A stretch of 35,154 nt of DNA from NCBI GenBank assembly GCA_013815465.1, contig JACDGE010000018.1, positions 1-35,154 of the forward strand. The letters run 5' to 3'. A program made the position numbers and the translations under genes. The stretch comes from Alphaproteobacteria bacterium (GTDB taxonomy: Bacteria > Pseudomonadota > Alphaproteobacteria > UBA9655). Each line of letters opens with the position of its first letter. The stretch's first letter is position 1. This document shows, piece by piece, positions 2,812 to 11,737 of the stretch. The notes under the pieces were generated by a model. The model saw only the letters and a list, made by a program, of their open reading frames with translations. It searched no databases and had not been told where the DNA came from.

Positions 2812-2895
2812 TTCTCAAGGTGTTGTGTTTGGTCCTCAAAAAGAAGCTCTGGAAAAGACAAGAGCTAATAATTTTTGGCATTTGGGAGAGCTGGA

Positions 2896-3390
2896 GTGTG
2901 TCTGAACATTAGGCAACTTAACGTGGAAGACTGGGCCCTATGGAAACACATTCGTCTTGAAGCTCTTAAACTTCATCCAGAAGCTTTCGGTGGTTCTTAC
3001 GAAGAAGAATCATTGTGGACCGATGAAGAATTTAAGAAAGGCCTCGTAAAAAGCGATATATTTGGAGCATTTGTTGATAATAAACTGGTGGGAGTCGCCG
3101 GATTTTTTATCTATGGGCTTCAAAAACTAAAGCACAGAGGGATGCTTTTTACTTTATATGTGAAAAAAGAAAACCGAGGCTTCGGTATTGCCACTCAGTT
3201 TATGGAAACAGTGATCGAGCATGCTCGGACACGCGTTCTTCAGCTGCATTGTACGGTTATTACAGGTAATGAGAGTGCAATTAGGCTATACCAGCGGCAT
3301 GGATTCCAGATTTTTGGAACGGAGCCCCGATCCTTAAAAGTGGGTGAAACTTTTCATGACTTGCATCTGATGGTGTTAAAGTTCGATTAA
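2896..3390 (+). CDS. GNAT-family N-acetyltransferase
   Basis: About 164 residues from a GTG at 2896, preceded by GGGAG at a seven-base spacing; a TTG at 2875 would add seven residues (MAFGRAG) that the family does not need. The N-terminus NIRQLNVEDW is typical of GNAT strand 1. The acetyl-CoA loop is seen in ENRGFGIATQFME, and the C-terminal strand/helix in NESAIRLYQRHGFQIFG. This resembles small-molecule or protein N-terminal acetyltransferases of the RimI-like superfamily; the acceptor cannot be told. It follows the hydrolase gene on the same strand. The bases just before it carry a reading-frame fragment in another phase, so the 5' end may have been rearranged. Confidence 0.8.
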   Translation: MCLNIRQLNVEDWALWKHIRLEALKLHPEAFGGSYEEESLWTDEEFKKGLVKSDIFGAFVDNKLVGVAGFFIYGLQKLKHRGMLFTLYVKKENRGFGIATQFMETVIEHARTRVLQLHCTVITGNESAIRLYQRHGFQIFGTEPRSLKVGETFHDLHLMVLKFD

Positions 3391-3451
3391 TTTTGAGTTA
3401 TGGCCTTCTAAAATGATAAAGAAACTATCGTCAAGTTTCTCGGGGGTGGTG

Positions 3452-3478
3452 CCAAGAGAGGCTATTCACCTCTCTTGG
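3452..3478. terminator. 10-bp perfect hairpin between convergent genes
   Basis: CCAAGAGAGG (3452-3461) and CCTCTCTTGG (3469-3478) form a perfect ten-pair stem with a seven-base loop. It lies between the 3' ends of the acetyltransferase (plus) and the symporter (minus). It could end transcription from both sides, although neither side has a long T run, so efficiency is uncertain. Confidence 0.5.
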
Positions 3479-3485
3479 ACCTTCT

Positions 3486-4655
3486 TTAGGAAAAATCAGG
3501 CCTGGGCTTAAACCTCTCGAACGCAAGAATTATCTTCCCCATCACTTGTGCAAAGCCTCCATTTCCGAGCACATTTGCACTCGTAATAACAGGATCAAAT
3601 AAAATGTAAAGGGCTGTGATGAGAGACATCATTTCCGCATTAAATCCCAAATGCGTTTCAAGGATAGGGAGCATGACCAGGATGCCTCCCCCCGGTACGG
3701 CAGCAACAGAAAACTTAGCCAAAACAAAATAGAAAGCAAAGACGACGTAACTGATCATTGACGGCTCTGCAATTCCATAGTTTTTTAAAATAGCAAAAGC
3801 AAAGATAGGGATTGCAAAGCAATCACCAATCAGATGGATATTGACCGTTGCTGGAATGACGGACCGCACTAAAGTCGGGTCCTGCGCATTTTGTTCAGCA
3901 CCTAAAATAGTGAGAGGCATGGCGGCCGCACTTGACATTGTACTAAAGCCCGTGATGGTCGCGGGGAGCATATTCTGAAGACTCTTTAAGAATGCCTTGA
4001 CCTTGAAACGATTAACGCACATGTAGATGAATCCAATATAAGCAAACTGCGAAATGGCAATCACCAGAAAGATCAAAGCGTAATCTTCGATGATTCTTGC
4101 GATGAGCCCCTCAAACTGCAACTTAACCACAAACCCGGCAATAAATAAGGGGATAAGAATAGTAAAAAGAGATAAGATTTTCATTGTGATTTTCTCGAAC
4201 AGGTCGGAAACCTTATGGGCCAGGCGGGGTTGTAACAGCGAAGAAATCACTCCCAAGATAAGGGCCGTAAACATAGCCTTATCATTTGCGATGAGTTTTG
4301 GGAGCTCAAAAGTCCAATAGGGCTCTAACTCCTGAACATTCTGCGGCAAGACAAGAGAGAGATCAAAATAATAAACGCCCGATCCTACTGTATAACTGAG
4401 AAGGGTTGAAAAAAAATTAGAGAGACAAACACTGGCTAAAATTAAAACAATGACTTTTGTGGCATTATGAGCAAGCTGGGACGCTACTTTAAACAGAAGC
4501 CCAAAGATAATCAGGGGCAGCAAGAAAACAATAAGAGATTTAATAGATAAACTTATACCGTAAATGATCGATTTCATTTCCCAAGACATAAATGGTTCTA
4601 AAATGATAATGGCGATAATCACCACCATTAAAATAAATGGCATTTTTCTAAACAT
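3486..4655 (-). CDS. Dicarboxylate/amino acid:cation symporter (SDF family)
   Basis: 389 residues, strongly hydrophobic, with the landmarks of the glutamate-transporter (GltPh/DctA) fold. FSTMSSAAAMP corresponds to the hairpin-1 serine-rich motif. IPATVNIHLIGD corresponds to the TM7 NMDGT region. AVPGGGILVMLP corresponds to hairpin 2. FDPVITSANVLGN corresponds to the TM8 substrate site. It is an inner-membrane secondary importer driven by Na+ or H+. In TM8 the family DxxRTxxN motif keeps Asp, Thr and Asn, but Ile replaces the Arg that binds the side-chain carboxylate of acidic substrates. A neutral or otherwise altered substrate is therefore likely (inference). AGAAGGA lies just upstream of the ATG at 4655. 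Transcribed alone. Confidence 0.9.
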   Translation of the reverse strand: MFRKMPFILMVVIIAIIILEPFMSWEMKSIIYGISLSIKSLIVFLLPLIIFGLLFKVASQLAHNATKVIVLILASVCLSNFFSTLLSYTVGSGVYYFDLSLVLPQNVQELEPYWTFELPKLIANDKAMFTALILGVISSLLQPRLAHKVSDLFEKITMKILSLFTILIPLFIAGFVVKLQFEGLIARIIEDYALIFLVIAISQFAYIGFIYMCVNRFKVKAFLKSLQNMLPATITGFSTMSSAAAMPLTILGAEQNAQDPTLVRSVIPATVNIHLIGDCFAIPIFAFAILKNYGIAEPSMISYVVFAFYFVLAKFSVAAVPGGGILVMLPILETHLGFNAEMMSLITALYILFDPVITSANVLGNGGFAQVMGKIILAFERFKPRPDFS

Positions 4656-4816
4656 GAGTTAGATCCTTCTTAATAGAGTTGTTAAAAAATAAAAGATATG
4701 AAGTTTGGGTGAGAAGGAGCTATTACCGGCAACAGCCGGTTGGCGTGGTGTAGAAAAATGTAGAGACCGCTATGGGTATCACTTTATATGCCATGCAAAA
4801 AATTCATTTATTTTAA

Positions 4817-4950
4817 TAGACCTCTTGCGAAGCTCATTCTCGCTCCCCCTCGACTGTCATCCCGCACTTGTTTCGGGATCTCTTTTAGATGCTGAAACAA
4901 GTTCAGCATGACAACTGTGGGGTAGTATAGAGATTTTCGAAAGAGGTCTA
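4817..4950. mobile_element. 134-bp MITE-like element with 15-bp terminal inverted repeats
   Basis: TAGACCTCTTGCGAA at 4817-4831 and TTCGAAAGAGGTCTA at 4936-4950 are inverted copies matching at 14 of 15 positions. The 134-bp interval has no coding capacity for a transposase and carries a 57-bp palindrome in its centre. TA-rich sequence flanks both ends. This is the layout of a non-autonomous (MITE-like) insertion. The parent element is not in the window. Confidence 0.6.
4856..4912. repeat. 57-bp palindromic repeat, family A copy 1
   Basis: Starts with GTCATCCCGCACTTGTTTCG and ends with AAACAAGTTCAGCATGAC; the two halves are imperfect inverted copies, so the whole unit can fold into one long hairpin. 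A second copy of exactly the same length and plan lies at 20929-20985. Confidence 0.8.
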
Positions 4951-5168
4951 ATATAAGATCTCATCGCATAAATGTAAAGAGCAGTGGAAAATTTTTAAAA
5001 GCCATAGCTACTTCCCCCACGCCACTCAGGGGATCACCTGCCCTTTGGGGTACATGGGGAGCTATTTGCGCTTGTCGTCACACAGCACGTTCTCATGGGG
5101 GACCTTTTCATCTTCCAAAATAGATTTTGTTGTCATAGGCTTGAGAAACAATCAAAATTTCCTCATGA

Positions 5169-6395
5169 TCAACGTTTTCTAGATATCACAACTAGCTCAA
5201 ATACAATCCAGGATAGGGCTGAACACATCATAAATAGGGATGCGAGCGGGACTTGGTCTGTCTCTGGTAAATAGGAGACGAGAGCACTAACGACAGCCCC
5301 CCCACCCAATTGCATGAAGCTGTAAAGGGAACCTGCATATCCCGCTATTTTATTAAAAGACGCAAAGGCGCCAGCAAAAATACTGGGCCAGAGAAGTGTG
5401 CTCCCAAAGTAAAACAGGATCATGGGTGCGACAATAACGGCCGTGTTAATCCCGTAGATGAATTTCAATGCCAACATCAAACCGCCGGCCATAAACATGA
5501 GCGCCCATCCCATGCGTAGCATAAAGTGAGTGCCATGCTTTACAACCATTTTTCCATTCACTAAGCCTGCAAGGATCATGGAGCCCCCACCTCCAAGCAG
5601 AGTAATCCAGCCAAATTCTACCGGGCTTATCCCGACTATTTTTATCAACAAAACGGGACCGGCAGTAAACCATGCAAAGAATGCGCCATAGCTTAGAAAG
5701 GTGCAAATCGTATAACCCATGAAGACGCGGCTGGATAAGAGCTGTCCAAATGCGTATGCAATAAACTTCCTGCTAAGTCGCTCTTTATGATGATGGATAC
5801 TGGTTTCTTTAAAAAAGATAAAAACAATCAATATGGTTGTTAAAGCATACAGTATTAAGAAAAGGAAACTGGACCTCCAGCCAAAATAAGTTTGTAAATA
5901 ACCCCCCAATGTCGGTGCTGCAGGAACAATAAACGGTATTGCTATCGAGAGATATCCTCCATATTTAGCGAGTTGTGGGCCATCAAAAGAATCTCTAAAA
6001 ATTGCCCGCCAAAGAGATGCTCCTGCGCCCGCCCCAAGTCCCTGTATAAAGCGTCCCAAGAGAAGCACTTCAATACTTGGGGCAAAAAAACATACCAAAC
6101 TCCCTGCCGTTATAATGAGTAGCCCGATAATCAATGGATGTCTTCTGCCAACTCCATCGGAAATTGGGCCATAGACCAATTGGGATATTGAGAGACCCAC
6201 CATAAATATAGCCAGTGTCCATTGGACTTCTTCTATAGTTGTTTTTAAACCATCTGCTATAGCCGGTATCGAAGGGATATAAATATCCGATGAAACGCCT
6301 GCAAGACAAGCAACAAGCACAACAACGAGAAATAGCAGCAGGTTTGATTTCATTTTTGCATCTATTGTAGGCAAGGATTGGGGATTCTGGCTCAC
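5169..6395 (-). CDS. MFS multidrug efflux transporter (Bcr/CflA type)
   Basis: 408 residues, with about twelve membrane segments. DIYIPSIPAIADGL in TM1 is the Bcr/CflA version of the family signature. YGPISDGVGRRHPLIIGL is the MFS motif A loop between TM2 and TM3. LGRFIQGLGAGAG (TM4) and VPAAPTLGGYL (TM5, drug-antiporter motif C) point to drug:H+ antiport. The start is a GTG at 6395 with GGGAAGG just upstream. It overlaps the stop of the upstream gene by four bases (GTGA), which suggests translational coupling. An internal ATG (residue 15) is a less likely alternative start. Its partner is a GrpB-GNAT fusion enzyme, so a modify-and-export module is possible (inference). Substrate unknown. Confidence 0.9.
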   Translation of the reverse strand: MSQNPQSLPTIDAKMKSNLLLFLVVVLVACLAGVSSDIYIPSIPAIADGLKTTIEEVQWTLAIFMVGLSISQLVYGPISDGVGRRHPLIIGLLIITAGSLVCFFAPSIEVLLLGRFIQGLGAGAGASLWRAIFRDSFDGPQLAKYGGYLSIAIPFIVPAAPTLGGYLQTYFGWRSSFLFLILYALTTILIVFIFFKETSIHHHKERLSRKFIAYAFGQLLSSRVFMGYTICTFLSYGAFFAWFTAGPVLLIKIVGISPVEFGWITLLGGGGSMILAGLVNGKMVVKHGTHFMLRMGWALMFMAGGLMLALKFIYGINTAVIVAPMILFYFGSTLLWPSIFAGAFASFNKIAGYAGSLYSFMQLGGGAVVSALVSYLPETDQVPLASLFMMCSALSWIVFELVVISRKR

Positions 6396-7342
6396 AACAC
6401 CTTCCCCATATCCGTATCTTGTGGATCGCTTTCATGGCCATTGGGATCATTGAATGGCATTTCCGTATAGCCGTATTTGAGGTAGAACGGATAGGCATCA
6501 GGAGAGGCTTGTGTATGCAAGGCCTTGAACCCTTTCCCTTTAAGCCAGCGCTCACAGAGGGAGAGAAAGTGTCCTCCCAAACCTTGTCCTCTTAAAGATT
6601 CATTAATCACAATAATCCGTAAAGCGGCTCTTTGCTCTGGCCAGAGCTGGGTGTGGGCATAACCGATAATGTTGGTTCCCTGATACAATACCAAGTGGGT
6701 ATGGTCTTGATGATCGAAGGTCCATGTATAGGGATCTGCAATGGGAATTTTATCGAAAAAAGTCCGGTTTCTGAAGGTACGTGCAGCTTCCCATTCATCA
6801 TGATGGGTACAAATCATCATGCGCAGGCCTTTAAAGCCTGCTTGATCCAGTATTTTCTTGATAAAGGCATCTTTCCCCAAATTAAACGTACTTACTGTCG
6901 CCTTCGTTTTTTGGTGCGAAGACTCTTGCTCCACTAAGCTCAGCTTCAAGTTTGCGTATGCTTGCCTGGCATCCGGATGGTTACGTAAAAAGTCCCGAAA
7001 TAAGAGATTGAGTTCAATCTCAGGATTCCCTTCCTCAAAAACATGCAAATTAATATTCGGGAGAGGGGGCCTTTTCCTGAAGCCAAGATGAAGGGGGATG
7101 TTAAATTCTCCCCTGTATTCGTAAGCCAATTTTTCAAGGTCTCGTATGAGAGAGTGCATCGTCTTTACAGATAGGATAATATCGATTTTAGGCTTCGCAC
7201 AAAGCCCAGGCACAGCAGTGGAACCAATATGGTGAATGGCGATACAGTTCTCTCCTAAAGATTGCTTAATTTTTGCAGCCTCCTCCTCAAACATTTGAGG
7301 CCAAGCGGGGTTATAAGGAAGGATTTCAATTTTGCGGGTCAT
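6392..7342 (-). CDS. GrpB (UPF0157) nucleotidyltransferase-like and GNAT acetyltransferase fusion
   Basis: 316 residues in two domains. Residues 1-165 are a GrpB/UPF0157 domain, a minimal nucleotidyltransferase fold, with the typical NPAWP near the start, HIGSTAVPGLCAKPKIDI at about 38-55, and the IELN motif around 109-112. Residues about 175-316 are a GNAT domain with the acetyl-CoA loop RGQGLGGHFLSLCERW at 251-266 and a C-terminal AYPFYLKYGY. Standalone GrpB proteins are about 170-180 residues, so this is a genuine two-domain fusion. The nucleotidyltransferase and GNAT folds are both used by antibiotic-modifying enzymes, but the actual substrate here is unknown. The gene is followed, with a four-base overlap, by a Bcr/CflA efflux pump. 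Confidence 0.88.
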   Translation of the reverse strand: MTRKIEILPYNPAWPQMFEEEAAKIKQSLGENCIAIHHIGSTAVPGLCAKPKIDIILSVKTMHSLIRDLEKLAYEYRGEFNIPLHLGFRKRPPLPNINLHVFEEGNPEIELNLLFRDFLRNHPDARQAYANLKLSLVEQESSHQKTKATVSTFNLGKDAFIKKILDQAGFKGLRMMICTHHDEWEAARTFRNRTFFDKIPIADPYTWTFDHQDHTHLVLYQGTNIIGYAHTQLWPEQRAALRIIVINESLRGQGLGGHFLSLCERWLKGKGFKALHTQASPDAYPFYLKYGYTEMPFNDPNGHESDPQDTDMGKVL

Positions 7343-7539: not shown

Positions 7540-8844
7540 TCACTTCACATTCATCCGAATACGGTAACGAAGACTGACCTCTTCTTGAGCCGCCAGGGTT
7601 ATCGTCCACTGCAGGCGCTTCTCTTCTTCCTCATGAGGATGGGTTTCGCGCAGGATGCTCCATTCACCCGTAACATTCTGAAAAACGGTGACTTGTTTAG
7701 GAAATTTTGTCTCATTTTTTAAATCCAGCCTATACCCCGATTCCACCACCTGACTCCCAAGTTTACGATAGTCGGTTTGCCGCATTTCAGCCGTAATTGC
7801 TTTGGTACTCCCCACGCGCAGACTTAGAGCTTTTTCCACTGGGATAAAAGGCGTTTTATTCTCACCGACATAAAAAAGAGCACCTACAGAATTGCGCTGA
7901 AAAACCTTAATAATACCCTCAGGAAGAGGAACGCCAAGTCCATGGGAACGATCATTTTGAACCGAAAGCCAAGTTTCTACCGTTGGTTTTATCACCACTC
8001 CCTCTTCATTCTCCGTTATCTTGTTTTTCGGAAAAATACGAAAGCTGGTGGAGGGTGTTAACCGAAGCGCCGAAAACCAGGAAATATTCTTTACCGCATT
8101 ATCGGAAAGGCTAATAGGCTTTTCAATGTCATAAAAATGTTCTCCTGCATTTTGCGTATGAGCGACGAGGAAATGACCTTTTTTAATATCCATGCCACTT
8201 TTGTTATGAATATTTATCCAGTTATTAAGATCAAGATGAGTTTCTGTGGCATCCAAAACAATGGTGTACCCCGCATCCCATCTAAATCCTTTGGCTAAGT
8301 ACCCCATGTTAAAAACATACTCTCCTTCCTTGGGATTATCAACTTTCAAGGTAATCAACGGTTCAGGAGCAAGCGTATAGGGAAGATGGGAAAAAGAAAT
8401 TCTATTTTTATTAAGAACAAAAATGCGGCCCTCGGATTCAACCACACAGTCTTCCCCATCGAGAGCTAAAAGCTGTGCCGTTTCAGGCATGGGAACAAGG
8501 CGACTGGGAAGAATATTTACCTTCTCCCCAATGGAGTGCTGCAATAAAGCGTTACGGGTAATTTGAGAGGTTTGAAAATTATATTCTAAAACCTTAACAG
8601 AAGCAGACGGGGGTATCATTTGGAAGATAAAGCTATCAACCAGAATATCCGATGGGACGTCTTTAATCAAAAGCTTATTAGAGCCCTCTTTTAAAAACGT
8701 TTTCCTCTTTTCCTTAATCAACGCCATATCCTGAGGATAGAGGGTGATGTTGACTTCCGTTTGAGAGGATTGAGGAACATTTTGGACAACAGCTTGGGCG
8801 GGCACTATAAGAGAAAAGAGGAGAAGAAAGAGCTTAAGTTTCAC
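7540..8844 (-). CDS. DUF4139 domain-containing exported protein
   Basis: 434 residues from a GTG at 8844 preceded by AAGGAGGG at ideal spacing. The longer frame to 8922 adds 26 residues before the signal sequence and is less likely. Residues 1-18 (MKLKLFLLLFSLIVPAQA) form a clear signal peptide. The mature part is rich in beta strands. It matches the plan of DUF4139 (COG5316) proteins, with an early VNITLYPQDMALIKEKR segment and a later YLAKGFRWDAGYTIVLD block. The function of this family is not established; members are periplasmic or outer-membrane associated. It lies 51 bases after rmuC (8974-10338) on the same strand, so the two may share a transcript. Confidence 0.8.
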   Translation of the reverse strand: MKLKLFLLLFSLIVPAQAVVQNVPQSSQTEVNITLYPQDMALIKEKRKTFLKEGSNKLLIKDVPSDILVDSFIFQMIPPSASVKVLEYNFQTSQITRNALLQHSIGEKVNILPSRLVPMPETAQLLALDGEDCVVESEGRIFVLNKNRISFSHLPYTLAPEPLITLKVDNPKEGEYVFNMGYLAKGFRWDAGYTIVLDATETHLDLNNWINIHNKSGMDIKKGHFLVAHTQNAGEHFYDIEKPISLSDNAVKNISWFSALRLTPSTSFRIFPKNKITENEEGVVIKPTVETWLSVQNDRSHGLGVPLPEGIIKVFQRNSVGALFYVGENKTPFIPVEKALSLRVGSTKAITAEMRQTDYRKLGSQVVESGYRLDLKNETKFPKQVTVFQNVTGEWSILRETHPHEEEEKRLQWTITLAAQEEVSLRYRIRMNVK

Positions 8845-8973
8845 AGGGTCAGCCCTCCTTGAGCAGCTGAAATTATAAATCTTTTTCTTTAATTTTAGAA
8901 TAATTTCATGTAACATTAGCAAAGAAAAGTTAAATTTTGGTTAATAAACTTACAGAATCCTGTCATGCTACCC

Positions 8974-10338
8974 TCATCCTACCTTTTTTAATTCGGGAGC
9001 CTGCAGCTCTCGAGGTGTTTGGTCAAGAGGGTCGAGAAGAACAATTTCAGCAGCTTCCGAAACAGACCCCAATTCTTTGAACCTTCGAGCGCTGGAAAGA
9101 ACGCGGTGTTCGAGACTGCCCATTGCACTATTATAGGACTGCACGGCTCCCCCGAGTTGCCTCCCAAGGCGGGAAAAATGATCAGCCATATCAGAAAGAC
9201 GTTTGTGAAGTTCACGACCCAGCTCGCTAATTTCTTTCGCGTTATCCGCTAAGTGCTCATGACGCCACCCATAGGCTACGGCTCTTAAAAGAGCAATGAG
9301 GGTGGTGGGGGTTGCTAGGATGATACGATCCTCCACGCCTGCTTCAATCAGGCTGGGATCTTGCTCAAGGGCTGCACTAAAAAAGGTTTCTCCTGGTAAA
9401 AACAAGACCACGAACTCTGGAGCTGGTTGAAACTGTTCATGATAGGATCGTTTCGACAGCGCCCGGATGTGGTTGCGCACTTGACGGGCATGGTCTTTAA
9501 GCTTTTCCAGACGAACATCCTCATCTTTAGCTTCAAGAGCTTCGAGATAAGCTGAAAGGGGGGCTTTCGCATCCACAATAATTTTTTTCTCCCCAGGAAG
9601 GTTAATAATGAGATCTGGGCGTAATCTTCCATCGCTTTCTGATGAAGAAACCTGTTCTTCAAAATCACAATAGTTCAACATCCCCGCCATCTCGACGACC
9701 CGCCTTAGCTGCATTTCTCCCCAACGTCCACGCACAGAAGGAGCCTTTAAGGCGTTCACAAGGTTAGAGGTTTCGCTTTTGAGTTGCTTTTGACTGACAA
9801 GAAGTTCATTAACCTGATGTTTAAGAACGGCATAGGCACTCATACGAGACTTTTCCAACTCAATAATTTTTTGATCTACCGTATGAAGGGATGCGGTCAC
9901 GGGTTTTACAAGGTCAGAGATGGCTTGCTGGCGATGGGATAAATCATTTTGAGCGACTTCTTGAAACTTCTCAAGGGTTGCGTTGGCGAGTTCTAAGAAA
10001 GACTTATTCGTTAACGAGAGGGCTTCTGACGAAATCGTTTTAAATTTATCCTCCCACTGAGTCTGAATATTTTCCAAAAGCGTGAGTTTTTCCTTACTTT
10101 CCTTTTCTGTACGGTGGAGGGCTGTTCTGAGCTCGGCGTTTCGTTCTCCCAGCAAACGCAATTCTTCTTCCCTCTTTAAAAGTAAGGCACTGACCTCGGG
10201 TAGACGACTGGCCCTTTCTTGATAAAGGGTTTTTTCTTGGATTACAGTGGAGACTTTTCTTTGAAAATAAATAAAAATACCCGCCATTCCCACAAGTACT
10301 CCTCCCATTAACCACATGAGTCCCTCAATTGCATTCAT
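8974..10338 (-). CDS. rmuC: DNA recombination protein RmuC
   Basis: 454 residues. One membrane segment lies near residues 8-25, followed by a long charged coiled coil to about residue 195. The conserved RmuC domain starts at RGRWGEMQLRRVVEMAGM (203-220) and continues with RPDLIINLPGEKKIIVDAKAPL (240-261), which resembles a PD-(D/E)XK nuclease core. The length matches the family (about 420-500). In E. coli RmuC loss changes inversion rates at short inverted repeats; the protein is thought to limit such rearrangements. That is notable here because the window has many palindromic repeats, although any link is speculation. A ribosome-binding AGGAAATAGGGA precedes the ATG. Confidence 0.93.
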   Translation of the reverse strand: MNAIEGLMWLMGGVLVGMAGIFIYFQRKVSTVIQEKTLYQERASRLPEVSALLLKREEELRLLGERNAELRTALHRTEKESKEKLTLLENIQTQWEDKFKTISSEALSLTNKSFLELANATLEKFQEVAQNDLSHRQQAISDLVKPVTASLHTVDQKIIELEKSRMSAYAVLKHQVNELLVSQKQLKSETSNLVNALKAPSVRGRWGEMQLRRVVEMAGMLNYCDFEEQVSSSESDGRLRPDLIINLPGEKKIIVDAKAPLSAYLEALEAKDEDVRLEKLKDHARQVRNHIRALSKRSYHEQFQPAPEFVVLFLPGETFFSAALEQDPSLIEAGVEDRIILATPTTLIALLRAVAYGWRHEHLADNAKEISELGRELHKRLSDMADHFSRLGRQLGGAVQSYNSAMGSLEHRVLSSARRFKELGSVSEAAEIVLLDPLDQTPRELQAPELKKVG

Positions 10339-10471: not shown

Positions 10472-11737
10472 ATGACTAACATGGGACTTGTCTTTCAGGC
10501 TGTCGCAGGCCTTATTTTATTTTTCTTTCTCGCGTGGTTTTTTAGTGAAAACCGCCGGCAAGTTAATTTTAAAGCTGCCTGTATGGGGTTTCTCATTCAA
10601 GTCGCCTTAGCCATTATCGTCACTAAATTTGGCATTGTGCGGGATGCTTTCCTCTGGATTGGTGGCGGAGTCATGGCTCTTAAAGATGCGACCGCCGCGG
10701 GGACAAGCTTCGTTTTTGGGTATCTCGGAGGGGCGCCATCTCCCTTTGAGGCGAAAGAAGGCGTAAGTAGCTTTATCTTTGCTTTTCAGGCTTTACCGAT
10801 GGTCATTGTGATCAGCGCTGTTGCCATGCTTCTTTTTCACTGGCGGATTCTTCCTTTTATTGTGAAAATTTTTTCAGGAGCCTTCCAAAAAGGCCTTGGA
10901 ATTGGAGGGGCCTTAGGCGTATGTGCAGCTGCCAAAATGTTTTTAGGACAAACGGAAGCGCCTCTTTTGGTACGTCCATATCTCGGTCAATTTAGTCGAA
11001 GTGAGCTCTTTAGTGTGATGACAGCCGGTATGGCGACCACCTCCATCTCCCTTATGGTGGTTTATGCAATGATTCTAGACGGAACGGTGACGGACCCCAT
11101 TGCCCATATCCTTACCGCCTCAATCATCAGTGTACCCGCAGCGATCACTATCTCTCGCATTCTCATCCCTCATACGGGAGCGCAAACATCAGGTCATTTG
11201 GTCGTTCCTTACCAATTCTCCGGATCAATGGAAGCAATTACTCAAGGGACTTCTGATGGGATGAAACTTTATATGAATATTTTGGCCATGTTAATTGTCT
11301 TTTTGGCCATCGTGGCTTTGGCCAATTCCTTGCTCTCCCTTTTGCCTACGGTTGGGGGGGAGACGATGAGCCTTCAGCTTCTTCTCGGCTATCTTCTAGC
11401 ACCTCTCGCCTGGTCTTTAGGAATTCCTTGGGAAGAAGCAGTCCCTGCAGGGGCGCTTTTGGGAAAAAAGACAATTCTTAATGAAATTGTTGCCTTTATT
11501 GGTCTTGCCGAATTGCCAAAAGGAATTCTAAGCGTCAAAAGTGACCTCATAATGACCTATGCACTTGCAGGCTTTGCGAACTTTTCCAGTATTGCAATTC
11601 AAATTGGGGGGATAGGCACCATGGTGCCTGAGCGCAAGCAGGAAATTATCGCTCTAGGTTTTAAGGCCATGGTTGCAGGGACCATTGCAAGTTGTATGAG
11701 TGGTTCCATCATCGGTATATTGCATAGTTTTGGATAA
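10472..11737 (+). CDS. nupC: Concentrative nucleoside transporter NupC
   Basis: 421 residues. It belongs to the CNT family of Na+- or H+-coupled nucleoside importers in the inner membrane. Family marks include FVFGYLGG (around 79-86), FAFQALPMVIVISA, the GQTEAPLLVRPYL substrate-site segment (about 163-175), and the second-repeat GTSDGMKLYMNILAML. Length is normal for bacterial members (about 400-425). GGGAG lies seven bases before the ATG. The last eight bases overlap the likely miaA start, so the two are probably co-transcribed. With two nucleoside hydrolases encoded at 18410-20402, it suggests uptake and breakdown of external nucleosides. Confidence 0.93.
   Translation: MTNMGLVFQAVAGLILFFFLAWFFSENRRQVNFKAACMGFLIQVALAIIVTKFGIVRDAFLWIGGGVMALKDATAAGTSFVFGYLGGAPSPFEAKEGVSSFIFAFQALPMVIVISAVAMLLFHWRILPFIVKIFSGAFQKGLGIGGALGVCAAAKMFLGQTEAPLLVRPYLGQFSRSELFSVMTAGMATTSISLMVVYAMILDGTVTDPIAHILTASIISVPAAITISRILIPHTGAQTSGHLVVPYQFSGSMEAITQGTSDGMKLYMNILAMLIVFLAIVALANSLLSLLPTVGGETMSLQLLLGYLLAPLAWSLGIPWEEAVPAGALLGKKTILNEIVAFIGLAELPKGILSVKSDLIMTYALAGFANFSSIAIQIGGIGTMVPERKQEIIALGFKAMVAGTIASCMSGSIIGILHSFG

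Follow-up and report, generated by a model that had tools for sequence, protein, structure and literature searches.

A GrpB-GNAT fusion protein, putatively a small-molecule-modifying enzyme, and its neighboring Bcr/CflA efflux gene in an alphaproteobacterial contig

Gene content of the locus

The window, that is, the whole stretch of DNA analyzed here (35,154 nucleotides of an alphaproteobacterial contig), carries two adjacent genes on the reverse strand. The first (6392..7342, -) is an open reading frame of 316 residues that starts with ATG and encodes a GrpB domain joined to a GNAT acetyltransferase domain. The second (5169..6395, -) encodes a Bcr/CflA-family MFS drug-efflux protein of 408 residues, if translated from GTG 6395, or of 394 residues, if translated from the likelier ATG 6353. 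The efflux-pump assignment made in the initial annotation was confirmed by profile search (TIGR00710, Bcr/CflA; 252.5 bits against the curated cut-off of 200.9). A separate GNAT gene (2875..3390, +), homologous to one of the GNATs in the G160 island described below, is located about 3 kb from the fusion.

The pair lies just beyond a conserved chromosomal backbone (7540..10338, -) made up of a DUF4139 gene and an RmuC-like gene. Within the genus, the conserved run consists of the gene at 10472, the RmuC-like gene and the DUF4139 gene, followed in most relatives by a gene of about 1148 residues. In the window, the DUF4139 gene is followed instead by the fusion, the pump and a dicarboxylate symporter. 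Because the run of genes departs from that of the relatives after DUF4139, the pair is positioned at a break in genus synteny. Promoter-like sites (6 versus 6.2 expected from shuffles) are no more common than in shuffled sequence and therefore carry no argument. PADLOC matched neither the fusion nor the pump, and there is thus no sign of a known defense system.

Domain architecture and predicted structure of the fusion protein

The two-domain composition proposed for the fusion from the sequence is borne out by both profile and structure matches. The N-terminal half (residues 4-166; 6845..7333, -) was assigned to the GrpB/UPF0157 family by PF04229 (1.4e-44; 152.5 bits, gathering score 25.5), and the C-terminal half (residues 172-316; 6395..6829, -) to GNATs by PF00583 (residues 187-295, 1.4e-11). 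The structure prediction that had been suggested as a check gave two well-formed domains (AlphaFold2 model built from 23 sequences, mean pLDDT 91, pTM 0.88). In structure comparisons the GrpB half of the model matches 2nrk (Z 21.6, 158 residues, 2.3 A, 40% identity), and the GNAT half matches ordinary GNATs with Z of about 18.

The acetyl-CoA loop of GNATs follows the motif [QR]xxGx[GA]. The fusion displays both the GNAT fold and an intact pyrophosphate-binding loop of this type, RGQGLG, at residues 251-256 (6575..6592, -). Alignment shows that the loop is changed in some relatives additionally fused to an APH domain, e.g. to RSKNAG in the L036 protein.

The start of the pump gene

Translational coupling of the two genes had been proposed from a four-base overlap, GTGA (6392..6395, -). 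The overlap is indeed present in the sequence and the genes do follow each other in tandem on the same strand, but the overlap holds only with the GTG start, which is doubtful. Pump orthologues in L065, L066 and L068 start exactly at the position of the in-frame ATG 6353 of the window, the orthologue in L067 starts within three codons of it, and the first 14 residues of the window frame (from GTG to ATG) have no counterpart in the orthologues. Since the orthologues begin there, homology favors ATG 6353 over GTG 6395 as the pump start, as judged from sequence comparison. Translation from ATG 6353 would leave a 38-base gap between the two genes. A loosely Shine-Dalgarno-like GGAAGG is found a few bases upstream of GTG 6395, and no obvious sequence of this kind precedes ATG 6353. 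Two pump orthologues are interrupted by in-frame stops (two TAA codons in L046 and one in L048), suggesting either decay or assembly errors.

Conservation of the gene pair

We searched for the pump in the flanks of 55 fusion loci. These come from about 35 different genomes or plasmids, and about 30 of them offer at least 900 bases downstream of the fusion. Among the loci of these roughly 30 relatives, none has an orthologous pump beside the fusion; the pair is confined to copies of the window. The survey proposed with the initial annotation found the ordered pair in the window genome only. Absence of the pair from relatives, named at the outset as the outcome that would speak against one pathway for the fusion and this particular pump, is thus essentially what these loci show, and the idea is not supported. 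Two near-misses were noted. In G160 a distant Bcr/CflA-like MFS protein is encoded two genes downstream of the fusion (26% identity; 190.6 bits, below the TIGR00710 cut-off of 200.9), and in G011 a distant MFS gene lies upstream of the fusion and points away from it. True pump orthologues (50-65% identity) do occur in G028, G011, G010 and G009, in each case apart from the fusion. G010 and G011 have both genes, but on different contigs; G009 has a truncated fusion and carries the pump on another contig. In three of these four genomes the pump adjoins a divergent TetR gene, whereas the window pump, although belonging to the same family, has none beside it. A TetR-operator-like pattern was also sought in the window and was not found. 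In L065, L067 and L068 a palindrome resembling TTGACYNRTCAGTCAA, probably an operator, is located near the pump start, beside the divergent TetR gene.

A dedicated, translationally coupled modify-and-export unit would fit the adjacency of the two genes on one strand with a possible GTGA overlap, as well as the distant Bcr/CflA protein in G160. It would also fit the company that the fusion keeps elsewhere, namely, an ABC exporter in the operon on Legionella plasmids and a preceding ABC exporter and GNAT in L036 and L072. However, no relative has a pump orthologue adjoining the fusion, the two genes are on separate contigs in G010, G011 and G009 (the last with the truncated fusion), and homology puts the pump start at ATG 6353, outside the overlap. 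We consider such a unit improbable. A coupled two-gene pathway with this pump is possible but unsupported, and the pair in itself is ordinary; the part worth knowing is the fusion family.

Taxonomic distribution of the fusion family

The full-length fusion was identified in 13 of the 14 same-genus genomes (52-72% identity), the remaining one having a truncated copy. Beyond the genus, named carriers of homologues include Paracaedibacteraceae, other Alphaproteobacteria, Parachlamydiaceae (Chlamydiae), Legionella and Rickettsiaceae. In a sample of 289 genomes of the class, the carriers of a near-full-length match, whose sizes were the ones considered, are all no larger than 2.6 Mb, which is in keeping with host association; carriers in general appear to be host-associated. 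Of the GrpB frames identified in 150 genomes of the phylum, that of the window (330 residues) alone is long enough for the fusion, the others being 128-268 residues in length. The family spans several phyla of host-associated bacteria and occurs on conjugative Legionella plasmids as well. In a tree of 27 fusion proteins the window protein groups with its own genus. Transfer of the fusion between phyla is likely, but the tree does not prove it, because the deeper forks are mostly unresolved.

Gene neighborhoods and larger fusions

To characterize the surroundings of the fusion, we compared 122 ORFs located within three genes of it (25 loci) with 122 control ORFs taken from 18 stretches elsewhere in related genomes. 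The GNAT profile matched 18 of the fusion neighbors and none of the controls (Fisher p about 2e-6), and a GNAT neighbor is present at 13 of the 25 fusion loci versus 0 of the 18 control regions (p about 1e-4); these p-values are optimistic, since loci, within the genus in particular, are related and not fully independent. Counting by Pfam gave a similar picture (19 GNAT neighbors versus at most 1 in controls). Other neighbors in relatives include APH, AadA-like, FosA-like, VanX-like dipeptidase, methyltransferase, NUDIX, LysE and ABC exporter genes. In a gammaproteobacterial MAG (L032), two adjacent class D beta-lactamase genes (3437-4246 and 4250-5047; 340.9 and 302.5 bits against the curated cut-off of 280) are located a few genes from a larger fusion.

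This larger fusion combines APH, GrpB and GNAT in a single protein (L032:32-1777, 581 residues). A second such protein is encoded at L036:2475-4382 (635 residues), so that the architecture is represented in a Legionella MAG and in another gammaproteobacterium. In G263 the APH and GrpB-GNAT parts are adjacent separate genes, and in L037 the chain is GrpB-GNAT-RibD_C. Separate neighboring genes for these parts are located in L176 at 5363-6286 and 6443-7291.

On Legionella plasmids, two of the three examined being conjugative according to MOB-suite, the fusion is part of a longer run of genes. On the two conjugative plasmids an ABC exporter and an AadA-like nucleotidyltransferase precede the fusion, and the fusion stop overlaps the gene for a triple GNAT by four bases.

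The apparent operon on the L. longbeachae plasmid (L078:2934-10191) encodes, in order, an ABC ATPase, an MsbA-like ABC exporter, the AadA-like nucleotidyltransferase, GrpB-GNAT, the triple GNAT, DUF1653 and an AAA_28 ATPase; the gene order on the L. hackeliae plasmid is the same. In G160 the fusion is part of a large, dense island (L173:119-11215) of seven GNAT-containing genes, which also encodes NUDIX, methyltransferase, cyclase-like and distant Bcr/CflA proteins.

Likely role of the fusion

Taken together, these neighborhoods give support to drug or metabolite inactivation, which had been put forward as a general idea: GNAT, APH, AadA-like, FosA-like, VanX-like and beta-lactamase genes surround the fusion in relatives, and fusions with APH occur in two lineages. 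With moderate confidence, we interpret the fusion as a putative small-molecule-modifying, resistance-type enzyme of amoeba- or protist-dwelling bacteria that belongs to a movable detoxification pool, and the pump as a separately acquired gene with no conserved pathway linking the two. The enzyme part of this interpretation draws on the GNAT-enriched neighbors (18/122 versus 0/122), the beta-lactamase, FosA-like and VanX-like genes, the APH-GrpB-GNAT proteins with the adjacent APH gene of G263, and the conjugative-plasmid operon with its exporter, AadA-like gene and triple GNAT. The separate acquisition of the pump is suggested by the uniqueness of the pair to the window, by the orthologues that start at ATG 6353, three of them next to a divergent TetR gene, and by the synteny break after DUF4139.

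Several observations count against the resistance-type assignment. The fusion matches no curated resistance family: searches against curated ANT, AAC and APH families gave no match, and only dephospho-CoA kinase and RimI models were hit, both below cut-off. GNATs are common and versatile enzymes, movable regions gather unrelated genes, and the kinship of loci within the genus means that the neighbor counts are not fully independent. In addition, tests on M. tuberculosis CoaE revealed no role of its GrpB domain beyond folding (PMC2765170). PADLOC matched neither the fusion nor the pump, and there is thus no sign of a known defense system.

A protein or host target, in place of small molecules, could be suspected from the best structural matches of the GNAT half, which include the protein-acetylating Naa80 and GCN5, and from the apparent host association of the carriers. 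However, protein- and small-molecule-acetylating enzymes are tied as matches (Z about 17-18, 12-19% identity), so that Naa80 and GCN5 do not discriminate, and the neighboring genes are resistance-like. We regard such a target as very improbable.

For the preferred small-molecule role, the following scheme may be envisaged. Movable detoxification genes (GNATs, kinases, beta-lactamases and exporters) would shift between genomes, the fusion being one of the pool. Its GNAT half would use acetyl-CoA to acetylate an amine on a toxic compound, either an antibiotic or a metabolite of a protist or competitor. The GrpB half might add a nucleotide to compounds of the same class, or else help in binding the substrate or in folding. 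In the window, the fusion lies past the synteny break and precedes a Bcr/CflA pump that would have been acquired separately and may be co-transcribed with it.

Relation to described systems

The initial annotation knew of no described system with this set of genes. That statement is too strong, as the fusion already carries a name at NCBI ('bifunctional GrpB family protein/GNAT family N-acetyltransferase') and a bifunctional aminoglycoside enzyme composed of a nucleotidyltransferase and a GNAT, ANT(3'')-Ii/AAC(6')-IId, is known from Serratia marcescens (PMC6017855). Among openly licensed papers we found none on the GrpB-GNAT family. The named representative WP_025520180.1 from Legionella plasmids matches the window protein in both domains and their order (99% of the length, about 50% identity) and belongs to the same family; it differs in context, as its operon includes the ABC exporter, the AadA-like nucleotidyltransferase and the triple GNAT, and no Bcr/CflA pump. 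The Serratia protein likewise combines a nucleotidyltransferase-fold domain and a GNAT in one chain and is a resistance enzyme. However, its ANT domain comes from another nucleotidyltransferase family, and the fusion has no family-level match to curated aminoglycoside enzymes. AAC(6')-Ie/APH(2'')-Ia, a bifunctional resistance enzyme of GNAT and APH, is comparable to the APH-GrpB-GNAT proteins of L032 and L036, but it lacks GrpB, and APH is absent from the window protein. Finally, mycobacterial CoaE-GrpB (6n39; PMC2765170) also places GrpB (UPF0157) within a two-domain protein, although the partner there is dephospho-CoA kinase and only a folding role was found.

Catalytic potential of the GrpB domain

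GrpB is a widespread bacterial domain without known catalytic function, and in the fusion family it keeps company with resistance-like genes. It has been placed among proteins with the nucleotidyltransferase fold (PMC7288161). The window domain, described initially as a minimal nucleotidyltransferase fold, has the GrpB fold and keeps all the family-invariant residues (H38, G40-S41, K50, D54, F115-R116, Y129 and K133). Of these, H38, G40, K50, D54, F115, R116, Y129 and K133 are identical in 20 of 20 diverse GrpB sequences and are also kept in fusion relatives. What the domain lacks is the canonical acidic triad. Taking the Pol-beta-type pattern (hG[GS], then [DE]h[DE], then a third acidic residue), we found GS at 40-41 and D54, but I56 and H100 at the positions of the second and third acids. 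Loss of metal- and nucleotide-binding residues had been named as evidence against the proposed activity; in these terms, the residues of its own family are all present, but the canonical triad is incomplete. Most of the 20 compared sequences likewise have neither the second nor the third acid, a few having D at position 56.

These substitutions are compatible with GrpB being a non-catalytic folding or substrate-holding module, which would make the protein a GNAT with a helper domain. CoaE of M. tuberculosis, which needs its GrpB domain for folding only, several other activities having tested negative (PMC2765170), points the same way. Against this, the residues identical in all 20 sequences exceed the needs of a passive scaffold, and standalone GrpB proteins occur in many bacteria, as seen in the survey of 150 genomes of the phylum. 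We consider the helper role possible, if on the unlikely side. More speculatively, and rather unlikely to hold in full, GrpB-GNAT and APH-GrpB-GNAT proteins might constitute an uncharacterized family of multi-domain, drug- or allelochemical-inactivating enzymes that circulate among amoeba-dwelling bacteria, in which GrpB would catalyze nucleotidyl transfer through a non-standard active site (G-S, D54 and H100). If true, the domain would thereby gain its first catalytic function. The fusion family would allow the role of GrpB to be tested directly.

No relatives of the fusion were found in viral contigs, and phage matches cover the GrpB half only. Among the matches listed, the many on Escherichia, Salmonella and Klebsiella plasmids are mostly to a 65-residue GrpB. 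On two enterobacterial resistance plasmids this short gene is located between mef(B) and sul3 (L080:1325-1570 and L081:5998-6243); we treated it as a passenger between these genes and set it aside as evidence.
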